Positions 10,466 through 16,764 of a DNA stretch of 64,000 nucleotides are shown here, piece after piece. Numbering within the stretch: the first letter of the stretch is position 1; the number at the start of each line of letters is the position of its first letter. The DNA lies in assembly GCA_000237975.1 (NCBI GenBank), contig CP003179.1, forward strand, positions 3,068,270 to 3,132,269, read 5' to 3'. The DNA is from Sulfobacillus acidophilus DSM 10332. GTDB lineage: Bacteria > Bacillota > Sulfobacillia > Sulfobacillales > Sulfobacillaceae. Made by a program: the position numbers and the translations under genes. The notes under the pieces are model-generated. The model worked only from the letters and a program-made list of their open reading frames with translations, was not told the DNA's origin and searched no databases.

Positions 10466-10709
10466 AGTTAACGAAGCCGTTTTATTGATGGATGGTACCG
10501 TTCGCATTGTCGTACTCGGGGTACAGGGCGATCAAGTGAAGCTCGGGATTGAAGCCCCGCGCTCCATCGCCATCATGCGCGAAGAAATTTTTGAGGCGCA
10601 GAGTGAAAATCAACGAGCCGCCCAGTCCGTTTTACCGGAGGGGTTGGGTGAGATTAGCGAGATTCCGCCCAGCCCTCAATCTCTTCCCCCGAAACCAAAA
10701 TCTCCGTAA
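10446..10709 (+). CDS. csrA: Carbon storage regulator CsrA
   Basis: 87 residues starting at ATG 10446 (MLVLARKVNEAVLL), preceded by CGGAGGAGC about 6 bp upstream. The full RNA-binding fold is present: strands 1-5 with GTVRIVVLGVQGDQVKLGIEAP and RSIAIMREE. The dimer binds GGA motifs near ribosome sites to block translation. The C-terminal 25 residues are Pro/Ser/Lys-rich and longer than usual (CsrA is commonly 60-75). That tail is encoded where the gene runs 56 bp into the convergent fliN. Confidence 0.93.
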   Translation: MLVLARKVNEAVLLMDGTVRIVVLGVQGDQVKLGIEAPRSIAIMREEIFEAQSENQRAAQSVLPEGLGEISEIPPSPQSLPPKPKSP

Positions 10710-11079
10710 TCCTGACTCCAAACTGATCGCCCACAATCACCACTTCCCCGTGGGCCACCAGCCGCCCGTTCAACATGATATCAACCGGCTCGCCATAGAC
10801 CCGATCCAGTTCGACGACGGATCCGGGGCCTATTTCTAAGGCGTCTTTGACGGTAACCGCCGTGCTACCCAAGACGACTTCGACCGTCATGGGCACATCC
10901 CATAAAAATTCGACCGGCTCGGTGTGGGTCGCCGGGTCACCGGATACCTCCAGTTCTGCAAACTCGACTTTTTTTACGTCCACTTCCGCTGAGGCCTCAG
11001 CCTCCGCTTCAGCTTCCGTACCGCCTCCCACTAATGCTTGAATTTCTTCGGCCGTCAGCCGCGATGCCTTTTTCGGCAT
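10654..11079 (-). CDS. fliN: Flagellar switch protein FliN (FliY-like N-terminus)
   Basis: 141 residues. C-terminal SpoA domain (about residues 60-135): WDVPMTVEVVLGSTAVTVKDAL, LDRVYGEPVDIMLNGRLVAHGEVV and FGVRITEI. It forms the lower C-ring with FliM and FliG. The N-terminus carries LTAEEIQALVGGG (residues 8-20), resembling the LSQDEIDALL CheY-P docking peptide, then an acidic Ala/Glu linker. The CheC-like phosphatase domain of Bacillus FliY is absent. AGGAGGC precedes the ATG. The 3' end overlaps convergent csrA by 56 bp. Confidence 0.9.
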   Translation of the reverse strand: MPKKASRLTAEEIQALVGGGTEAEAEAEASAEVDVKKVEFAELEVSGDPATHTEPVEFLWDVPMTVEVVLGSTAVTVKDALEIGPGSVVELDRVYGEPVDIMLNGRLVAHGEVVIVGDQFGVRITEILVSGEEIEGWAESR

Positions 11080-11107
11080 GATAGATGCCTCCTATTCTCA
11101 GATGTCC

Positions 11108-12070
11108 CTAGGGAGTCGAGGAATGGGCCCCCTCCGCCCGCCCGATGACCCGAACGGCCAGTCGGTTGCCTACGCGCCCAGGTAGGACTTGAAACTTGTT
11201 CCGGTTGGACATGCGCATAATGAGCGGCTGGTCAAACCGGTTTTTTAACACGATGGCGTCGCCCACTTTGAGGTGGCTAAATTCCCCTAGCGTGATTTCC
11301 GTCCGGCCTAAAATGACGGCCGCTTCAACCGGCAATCGCTCGACATGCCGCCGCATTTCTTCCGGCTTTGCCTCCACCAGCGTTTGCAATCCGTCTCGCG
11401 CTTGAATATAGCGTACCGCCGCGTCCGCTAACGGGTGGATATGGACATACGGCCAGGCCAACGTCATCCAACCTTTTTGGCCATCCAAAATGACCGTCTG
11501 TCGTTGAACGAGAATGAGGTCGCCTTCCCCGGCAATTTGTGTAAACGCCGGGCTATGCTCGAGTACCGTGACTTTCGGTTCCAGGGTAATCACCGGCTCA
11601 AAACTTTCCCGATAAAACACCAACATCCGTTCCAAAATCCGCCGGAAAATAATCTGCTCAATCTCGGTCAATTGCCGGGATTGATAGGTCGTCTGGCCAG
11701 GTCCGCCCAAGGCTCGATCGATCATGCCGAGGGCAATGGTCGGTGCACACTCGATAATGGCGTGGCCCGGGGCCGGCGGTTCGGAAAACACCGCTAAAAC
11801 GGTCGGCGGTTTAAGACCCTCCAACAATAATTCATAGTCGATTTGTTCTAAGGGACCCGCTTGAATTTGCACCGGGGTGCGTAAATAAGTGGACAAAAAG
11901 GACGCCACCGCCCGCCAAAATCCGGCGAGGATACTGGTCAGGGCATCTATTTCGCCGCGGTTGAGTTGGCGTGATCGCTTAAAGTCATAGGGCCGAATAC
12001 CCGGCGTGGATTCTCGTACGACACCCATGCGGAGGATTCCCCCCTTTCGCTTGATGACAATATTCGCCAA
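11108..12070 (-). CDS. fliM: Flagellar motor switch protein FliM
   Basis: 320 residues from a TTG at 12070 with AAAGGAG about 11 bp upstream; a TGA three codons before blocks extension. YDFKR (residues 28-32) begins the CheC-like middle domain, with QTTYQSRQLTEIEQIIFRRIL typical, and the C-terminal SpoA domain includes GRTEITLGEFSHLKVGDAIVL. The usual N-terminal CheY-P docking peptide (LSQDEIDALL) is missing: only 27 unrelated basic residues precede YDFKR. Sits between fliL and fliN on the minus strand. Confidence 0.92.
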   Translation of the reverse strand: MANIVIKRKGGILRMGVVRESTPGIRPYDFKRSRQLNRGEIDALTSILAGFWRAVASFLSTYLRTPVQIQAGPLEQIDYELLLEGLKPPTVLAVFSEPPAPGHAIIECAPTIALGMIDRALGGPGQTTYQSRQLTEIEQIIFRRILERMLVFYRESFEPVITLEPKVTVLEHSPAFTQIAGEGDLILVQRQTVILDGQKGWMTLAWPYVHIHPLADAAVRYIQARDGLQTLVEAKPEEMRRHVERLPVEAAVILGRTEITLGEFSHLKVGDAIVLKNRFDQPLIMRMSNRNKFQVLPGRVGNRLAVRVIGRAEGAHSSTP

Positions 12071-14747: not shown

Positions 14748-15662
14748 CTAACCTTGATGATTAATCGCGCCGGGAATCGTCCAGTTATCCATTAAGCGTT
14801 TCATAAAGGCACCCCACCCGCCCCGTCGTGGCGGCGGCACCCGATGGAGTAGCCGATCCGCAATATCGCCTACCGCCATGGTCGCCTCACTTTTGGGATA
14901 GGCGAGATAAAACGGCTCTTGCCGCATGACGGCACGGGCGACATTCGCATCATCGGCAATGCTGCCCAAAAACTCGACGGACTGCCCGAGGGCTTTCTGC
15001 GCCAAATCGGTGAGGCGCTGACCTAATTTGGCCCCCTGGTCAAGGCTTTTGACCCGGTTCATGACCAGTTTCAAGGCCACGCGGCCTTCTTGTTCCCATA
15101 CCGCTTTAATCAGCCCGTAAGCATCCGCCAAGGCTGTCGGTTCCGGATTGGTGACTACCAGCGTTTCATCCGCGGCCAAGACAAACGCCAAGACCCCCTC
15201 GGAGAGTCCTGCTCCAGTATCAATCATTAACCAGTCACATTCGCCCTCTAACTCATGAAATCCTTCTATAATGTGCGAAATTTCGACGGTGTCGAGCCGT
15301 GCCAATTCCGCGATGCCCGACCCTCCGGGGATAATGCGGATCCCTTTTGGTCCCGGCTGTACGGTATCTCGTAGCGGGATATGGCGCTCAACCACATCCC
15401 ATAAGGTATAGACCGGCTCGTAACCTAATAAAATATTGATATTGGCCAACCCGAGATCGGCATCCAATACCACCACCCGCTGGCCACGGTCGGCCAACGC
15501 CAAACTGAGATTTAAGGTGAGGCTGGTTTTGCCGACTCCCCCTTTCCCGGATGCCACCGCCAGCACCCGGGCCCCTTCTATCCGCTCTTGCAGGACTTCA
15601 CGGGTGGTTTCTTCCACGCGCGAACGAACCCATTGCCGTAATTGATCCCCTTGATTAGCCAT
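14748..15662 (-). CDS. flhG: Flagellar number regulator FlhG (YlxH, MinD-like ATPase)
   Basis: 304 residues from ATG 15662, which has GGGAGGT 7 bp upstream; a start at 15704 would lengthen the overlap with flhF. Deviant Walker A LAVASGKGGVGKTSLTLNL, then VVVLDADLGLANINILLG and DTGAGLSEGVL are MinD signatures. A basic N-terminal helix (QLRQWVRSRVEETTREVL) precedes, matching the DQAxxLR-type FlhF-activating segment. Works with FlhF to set flagellar number and site, and delivers FliM-FliN to the basal body in Bacillus-type systems. Confidence 0.92.
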   Translation of the reverse strand: MANQGDQLRQWVRSRVEETTREVLQERIEGARVLAVASGKGGVGKTSLTLNLSLALADRGQRVVVLDADLGLANINILLGYEPVYTLWDVVERHIPLRDTVQPGPKGIRIIPGGSGIAELARLDTVEISHIIEGFHELEGECDWLMIDTGAGLSEGVLAFVLAADETLVVTNPEPTALADAYGLIKAVWEQEGRVALKLVMNRVKSLDQGAKLGQRLTDLAQKALGQSVEFLGSIADDANVARAVMRQEPFYLAYPKSEATMAVGDIADRLLHRVPPPRRGGWGAFMKRLMDNWTIPGAINHQG

Positions 15663-16764
15663 GTACGGTACCTCCCTGTAGCCACTCGGCCAATCGGTCC
15701 GCAAACGCTACTTGAATATCGTCGGGCACATGTTGCCCATCGGTAAAATACGACAGAGGCCATCCCAAGCTCAGCGCGGCGGCGAGCACGGCTCCCGGAT
15801 AGCGGACCTCATCCAATTTGGTAAAGCACAACTTGGCCGGCAAACCTTCGGCAAAGCGGGCGGCCACGTCCGTCAATAGATCGGGGTGCATGGTAGCCGG
15901 CAATACCAGTTGAATATCGGTCGGCTTGGCCAAATCGACTAACGACCGCAGCTCCGCCAAATACATCGCCTGCTGGGGACTATGGCCTGCCGTGTCGATT
16001 AACACCACATCGGCGGGGTACCGCATCATCAGGTCCGGAATGTCCTGCGGCCGAAGCGCCACCTGAAAAGGAACCCCAATAATTTCGGCAAAGGTTTTCA
16101 ACTGTTCGGCTGCCGCTACACGAAACGTATCATTGGAAATCAGCAGCACGGATTTCTGGCGCTCCAAATGAAAGTAGGCCGCTAATTTTGCAATGGTTGT
16201 GGTTTTGCCGGATCCGGTGGGCCCTAAGAACAACACTCGGGCCGCATCGGTTAAATGGATTGGCGCGGGTGGCCCCAGGCGGTCGTTTATCAACGGTCCG
16301 AGAGCGCCCAAAGGATCCCCGTTCTCCCCTGCCGTTCGCAAAAGATCTTGCGCCAGTTCGCGAGCCCAATAGGGAGTTACGCCCCGTGCCAAAAACCACT
16401 CCTCCCACTCCTGTTGAGCGGGGTTATCCATCACCGGGGCCAGCCGGTCAAGCCGCTGACCTAATTTTTGTACGAGCGTGATCACATCGTCCAATTTGTG
16501 ATCCACGCCCGTGTCGCGCCCGCCGGCCCCCGCGGCCGATTCTACGGGAACCCGGGTCGATGCGGCTTCTTCCGCCCCGTTAGCGGTAGCGGGTTTACGG
16601 GGATAATCGGCTGCCACCAACACTTGAAAACCGCTTTCCCAAAATTTCCACCACCGATCACGGGCCTTGCCTGACGAGAGAATAATGGCGTCATCGCCTA
16701 ATTCCCACTTGGCCAGGGCCAGCGCCTCTTCGGCACTTCGTCCGGAAAACCGTTTGACAATCAT
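15655..16764 (-). CDS. flhF: Flagellar biosynthesis GTPase FlhF
   Basis: 369 residues. SRP-type GTPase with an N-terminal basic domain (IVKRFSGRSAEEALALAKWELGDDAIIL), G1 LGPTGSGKTTTIAKL, G2 NDTFRVAAAEQL, G3 IDTAGHS and G4 TKLDE. Marks where the flagellum is built. Ends inside the start of flhG (8-bp overlap) and begins in the stop region of flhA (4-bp overlap), so the flhB-A-F-G set is tightly coupled. Confidence 0.95.
   Translation of the reverse strand: MIVKRFSGRSAEEALALAKWELGDDAIILSSGKARDRWWKFWESGFQVLVAADYPRKPATANGAEEAASTRVPVESAAGAGGRDTGVDHKLDDVITLVQKLGQRLDRLAPVMDNPAQQEWEEWFLARGVTPYWARELAQDLLRTAGENGDPLGALGPLINDRLGPPAPIHLTDAARVLFLGPTGSGKTTTIAKLAAYFHLERQKSVLLISNDTFRVAAAEQLKTFAEIIGVPFQVALRPQDIPDLMMRYPADVVLIDTAGHSPQQAMYLAELRSLVDLAKPTDIQLVLPATMHPDLLTDVAARFAEGLPAKLCFTKLDEVRYPGAVLAAALSLGWPLSYFTDGQHVPDDIQVAFADRLAEWLQGGTVHG

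Follow-up and report, generated by a model that had tools for sequence, protein, structure and literature searches.

The switch protein of the flagellar motor receives phosphorylated CheY (CheY-P) through a peptide of the LSQxEIDALL type at the N-terminus of FliM, and FliY of Bacillus has a second copy of this peptide. A preliminary description of the window, i.e., the 64-kb stretch of Sulfobacillus acidophilus DSM 10332 DNA analysed here, had reported that the FliM encoded in it lacks the peptide and that the adjoining FliN begins with a look-alike, and had proposed that signal input to this switch has moved wholly to that FliN. The locus therefore raises the question of where CheY-P docks in this organism.

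FliM of S. acidophilus and its missing peptide

The fliM reading frame runs on the minus strand from TTG 12070 to 11108 and is closed by an in-frame TGA just upstream. Its product matched the Pfam families FliM (128.7 bits) and FliMN_C (61.6 bits), each above the cut-off, giving a protein with the middle domain and a C-terminal SpoA domain; against NCBIfam TIGR01397 it scored 188.8 bits, below the cut-off of 219.6. The GGxG motif that contacts FliG is kept as GGPG. Because the FliM proteins of close relatives all begin MGLVR...RPYDFQRP (MGLVR...RPYDFQRPHQLSR) at an ATG aligned with 12028, and because a Shine-Dalgarno sequence (AAAGGGGGG) lies in front of it, ATG 12028 is probably the true start. 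The gene would then occupy 11108..12028 on the minus strand (306 aa; Pfam FliM 3.3e-37), and the in-frame TTG extension (12029..12070, minus), which is absent in relatives, is probably untranslated. The preliminary description had placed the start at TTG 12070 with 27 residues before YDFKR; the upstream TGA is indeed present, but from ATG 12028 only 13 residues stand ahead of YDFKR.

The peptide was scored with a matrix derived from 38 FliM peptides, all from members of the same class outside the Sulfobacillales; 43,622 windows taken from protein cores served as a control set (maximum 14.0 bits). The best upstream segment of FliM scored −14.8 bits. No LSQxEIDALL-type N-terminal docking peptide was found on FliM, and a six-frame scan of the whole 64 kb supplied none for it, the sole stretch of at least 10 bits being LTAEEIQALV of the adjoining FliN (13.7 bits). 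The absence of the peptide from FliM is thus borne out. A missed start carrying the peptide can be rejected given the in-frame stop, the later start in relatives and the failure of the six-frame scan to reveal a peptide for FliM. An internal FliM stretch, LNRGEIDALT, was also rejected as a shifted dock, as its 6.4 bits were equalled by 8 of the 43,622 control windows and it is homologous to the core KEQIRTL region, so that its resemblance is that of chance.

The N-terminal motif of the adjoining FliN

The adjoining gene, here called fliN1 (10654..11079, minus), encodes a protein of 141 aa with a single FliMN_C/SpoA domain (Pfam FliMN_C 1.5e-23; TIGR02480 fliN, 99 bits, above cut-off), and its short length, one SpoA domain and position beside FliM identify it as a FliN. 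Its N-terminus is MPKKASRLTAEEIQALVGG, and the look-alike described at residues 8–19 is real: LTAEEIQALV (11029..11058, minus) is related to the docking peptide but lacks the Gln and Asp of the latter. Only one of the 43,622 control windows scored as high as its 13.7 bits, and the likeness exceeds chance. The motif is conserved in 30 Sulfobacillales genomes, with Gln at position 3 in none of the 30 and Asp at position 7 in two. Scores were higher in G002, G009 and G010 (17.1 to 18.0 bits), and the chemotactic genus g8 has a weaker form, LTKEELQALT, with 5.1 bits. Among the Sulfobacillales without CheA and CheW, 11 of 14 retain the motif.

A second FliN encoded in the che operon

Three FliMN_C proteins are encoded in the S. 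acidophilus genome (3,557,831 bases, 2 contigs), namely FliM, FliN1 and a further protein, FliN2. The gene for FliN2 lies at C1:3178556-3178765, beyond the right-hand end of the window at a distance of about 46 kb, and hence invisible to the preliminary description. It is the last gene of a che operon with the order cheW-cheA-cheY-HD-cheC-like-cheB-cheR-fliN2, directly after cheR. The likely start is a GTG at L037:9000, preceded by GGAGGAG, which yields MEDTNRPLSQSEIDALLAALSP... followed by a linker and the SpoA domain. The N-terminus of FliN2 (MEDTNRPLSQSEIDALLAAL) contains the canonical peptide LSQSEIDALL (PLSQSEIDALLAAL) with a score of 26.2 bits, compared with 13.7 bits for the FliN1 motif; none of the 43,622 control windows exceeded 14.0 bits. 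A degenerate DNA pattern of the canonical peptide occurred once in the 3.56 Mb genome, in FliN2, with no occurrence of the reversed control.

FliMN_C (8.2e-17) is the only Pfam domain of FliN2, and no CheC-like phosphatase domain was found between peptide and SpoA domain, the linker being disordered in the AlphaFold2 model. This model, with a modest mean pLDDT of 65.6, shows a helix at residues 17–27 (the peptide), a poorly ordered stretch at 28–81 and a SpoA-like domain, and its top Foldseek match was a FliN (1o6a). FliN2 consequently shares with FliY the N-terminal docking peptide (26.2 bits) and not the CheC-like domain. In a phylogenetic tree, FliM stood apart from FliN, FliY and FliN2 with a support of 98, placing the SpoA domain of FliN2, which is diverged, with the FliN/FliY type and not with FliM. 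A profile search of the PDB with FliN2 weakly matched the N-termini of FliM in 8umd and 4iga. A search of genome contigs for related loci returned mostly generic FliN and FliY and one Sulfobacillus only.

Other products of the che operon were also inspected. Its CheY is most similar to that of Thermotoga maritima, which was crystallised in complex with the FliM peptide (4IGA). CheA (L037:12915-15668) contains a pair of CheW domains, carries a receiver at its C-terminus and scored only 21.8 bits against PF02895. A 185-aa protein (L037:10906-11463) without a Pfam match contains an ExxN stretch (LAEVGNVVGTAFLN) of the kind typical of CheC/CheX phosphatases, and is likely a CheY-P phosphatase.

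Distribution among the Sulfobacillales

Comparison of the N-termini of relatives showed that the peptide is missing from FliM throughout the Sulfobacillales, genus g4 excepted, in which LSQSEIDALL is found in the chemotactic G012 and a degraded LSGPEADALL in the che-less G003. It should be noted that genus g4 (G012, L054; G003, L053) and G041 (L052) have a divergent flagellar set. Most chemotactic Sulfobacillales encode a FliN2 with LSQxEIDALL or LSQEEIDKLL. The gene adjoins cheR in eight genomes (S. acidophilus, G004, G006, G013, G015, G018, G021 and G022), and in genus g8 it is not part of the che operon and lies at a distance of about 30 kb from fliM. Gln3 and Asp7 of the FliN2 peptide are invariant (25 of 25), compared with 35 and 33, respectively, of the 38 FliM peptides of the class, and the Sulfobacillales FliN2 proteins form one clade with a support of 97.

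PF02895 (H-kinase_dim) misses the CheA of the S. acidophilus lineage, whose dimerisation domain is very divergent; as this family was unreliable as a CheA marker here, CheW (PF01584) was taken as the marker of chemotaxis. By this marker an intact FliN2 peptide was present in 19 of 22 chemotactic genomes versus 3 of 14 che-less ones (Fisher p = 0.0002), in counts assembled by hand and uncorrected for relatedness, with G021 scored as chemotactic on account of cheR and cheB, which adjoin its FliN2 at the end of a contig. The exceptions are the chemotactic G028 and G041, in which no docking peptide was found, the likewise chemotactic G012, whose peptide is on FliM, G008, which is cut by a contig end, and G002, G011 and G010, which have the peptide without CheW. 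In the che-less G005, G014 and G009, FliN2 is present and the peptide lost, and in the che-less G030 (genome 86% complete) the peptide is ruined (LSPDETNTLL). Genus g12 has no FliN2, and there was no CheC-type FliY among the Sulfobacillales members read.

Some gene arrangements deserve mention in their own right. In G005 and G009 (L283, L078, L080) the peptide-less FliN2 is encoded next to FlhB in the flagellar operon. In G011 and G002 (L061, L063), which are without CheA and CheW, a FliN2 with LTQEQVDELL lies beside an HD protein and a CheY-like receiver, possibly a CheA-independent input to the switch. G001 and G047 encode proteins with CheA/CheW domains and no FliM or FliN was found in them; these are chemosensory genes without a flagellar switch.

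Occurrence in the wider class

With a threshold of 17 bits for the FliM peptide, 45 of the 77 chemotactic genomes of the class with a FliM locus fell below it (G050 only just), and in 38 of these 45 the peptide was found on FliN, FliY or FliN2. Counted wherever it occurred, FliM included, the peptide was present in 70 of 77 chemotactic genomes versus 10 of 32 che-less ones (p = 7e-10). In families f7, f18, f19, f42 and f43 it is carried by FliY or FliN. In family f31, G111 (f39) and G044 (f6) it is found on a third, short FliN encoded at or near che genes. FliM is without it in all three, as is the resident FliN/FliY in f31 and G111. Since the FliN2 proteins of f31, G111 and G044 fall outside the Sulfobacillales FliN2 clade, a short, peptide-bearing FliN of the che locus probably arose several times, in the Sulfobacillales and in three other lineages of the class, in a tree made by a quick method from few columns and indecisive on independent origins.

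FlhG as candidate partner of FliN1

The window also contains a MinD-like flhG (14748..15665, minus; 168.6 bits to Geobacillus FlhG, 4rz2), adjoined by flhF (15655..16764, minus). The latter was assigned from its reading frame and gene order, in keeping with the usual make-up of fli operons, and probably encodes the partner GTPase of FlhG. The N-terminus of this FlhG, MANQGDQLRQW, is similar to the DQAxxLR motif, which has been described for Bacillus FlhG as activating FlhF. FliY of Bacillus subtilis and Geobacillus resembles the present proteins in having a FliN-type domain with an N-terminal EIDAL peptide, and its first 36 residues bind FlhG (PMC12327844, PMC12826062), being both necessary and sufficient for this binding (PMC12327844). 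In polar flagellates FlhG binds the N-terminus of FliM (PMC12826062). Two of the three FliY-binding residues are kept in the window FlhG, the other being changed from F to A, as read by hand from the alignment.

Twenty Sulfobacillales genomes were tested for FlhG. The FliN1 motif is present in each of the 15 that encode a strong FlhG, while among the five with only MinD-like or weak FlhG matches the motif is found in none or one (G037, partial); this co-occurrence reflects two or three independent losses, in tables partly coded by hand and uncorrected for relatedness. Given the co-occurrence, the known binding by FliY and the two kept residues, FlhG is the leading candidate for binding the FliN1 N-terminus, with about an even chance that it does so.

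A proposed division of labour between two FliN paralogs

The analysis shows that the docking peptide has been lost from FliM and is present on FliN2, and it establishes the gene context of the latter, its conservation and its co-occurrence with che genes. We infer from this that CheY-P binds FliN2 and that FliN2 has a place in the C-ring. We favour, with reasonable though by no means full confidence, a division of labour in which FliN2 docks CheY-P and the N-terminus of FliN1 docks FlhG. The high-affinity peptide would have left FliM for a dedicated second FliN made from the che operon, in which a flexible linker of about 55 residues joins a docking helix to a SpoA domain. The SpoA domain would occupy part of the FliN positions of the lower C-ring, and the tether would bring CheY-P to the ring. 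FliN1 would retain the relative LTAEEIQALV to serve a different partner. This is most likely FlhG, the protein that captures FliM/FliN for C-ring assembly. Two roles joined in the N-terminus of Bacillus FliY, the CheY motif and FlhG binding, would then be divided between a pair of FliN paralogs.

In Bacillus, FliM and FliY are both believed to dock CheY-P, and FliN1 could similarly provide a weak site that complements the strong site of FliN2. Statistically, the motif of FliN1 is akin to the peptide (13.7 bits, rising to 18.0 in some genomes) and occupies the same place in the protein. However, it is kept in che-less genomes, falls to 5.1 bits in the chemotactic genus g8 and lacks Gln3 and Asp7, and such double docking is considered rather unlikely. 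The chances are slimmer still that FliN2 is a soluble CheY-P sink or adaptor that contacts FliN or FliM transiently without being a C-ring subunit. Its gene among the che genes and its diverged SpoA domain would suit such a role, but in C-rings of known structure the FliM-FliN and FliN-FliN dimers are made by SpoA domains, and, since FliM is without a dock, a mere sink would leave the motor with no known high-affinity input.

The proposal that signal input rests wholly on the FliN of the window finds no support. The look-alike is conserved and FliM has no peptide, yet the same genome encodes a canonical peptide on FliN2 and the FliN1 motif is independent of chemotaxis; FliN1 as the sole dock is accordingly rejected as very improbable. 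That a FliN-type protein has taken over docking does appear to hold, with FliN2 as the protein concerned. It is hardly credible that the motility system is a degenerate relic in which the placement of the motif has no function, even though the type strain NAL-T (DSM 10332) is listed as non-motile with no flagella observed (PMC3558970), as its flagellar and che operons are long and intact, the peptide residues are invariant across many genera, and all Sulfobacillus genomes compared have flagellar and chemotaxis operons, with nine MCPs in S. acidophilus (PMC4378227).

The proposed division of labour between FliN2 and FliN1 differs from known systems in several respects. FliY of Bacillus has a CheC-like middle domain, which is absent from FliN1 and FliN2, and in the Sulfobacillales two short FliN paralogs bear peptide-type N-termini, the canonical one in the che operon, and FliM bears none. 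As in FliM of Escherichia coli and T. maritima (1F4V, 4IGA), the LSQxEIDALL helix of FliN2 is followed by a flexible tether, but the carrier is a FliN paralog. A study of the Campylobacter jejuni C-ring noted that EIDAL motifs, either full or degenerate, turn up sporadically in FliN and FliY, and that FliN/FliY has been duplicated repeatedly (PMC6946799); the Sulfobacillales differ in the lineage-wide loss from FliM, the che-operon FliN with the peptide and its co-occurrence with che genes. No description of a che-operon FliN with the dock alongside a FliM without it was found in open papers, subscription papers lying outside the search.

According to a recent paper, the FliM and FliY proteins of every motile bacterium contain the EIDALL motif (PMC9126983). 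In contrast, the acid-loving Sulfobacillales have full flagellar gene sets and a FliM almost entirely without the motif, and its new site is visible. They represent a natural experiment, which bears on whether CheY-P needs a tether on FliM itself or simply has to be brought close to the ring, and on how short helices that are related to each other can have CheY and FlhG as partners. The signal input of the motor appears to be a movable module. A broader reading, offered tentatively and with the balance somewhat against it, is that the docking peptide is a mobile switch module which a separate, che-encoded FliN carries in the Sulfobacillales as in three further lineages of the class, and of which the resident FliN of the Sulfobacillales keeps a diverged copy for FlhG. 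Input and assembly control would then be split over two interchangeable ring subunits, and the dose of FliN2 could set sensitivity. Should the che operon supply FliN2, subunit exchange could tune the sensitivity of the switch.
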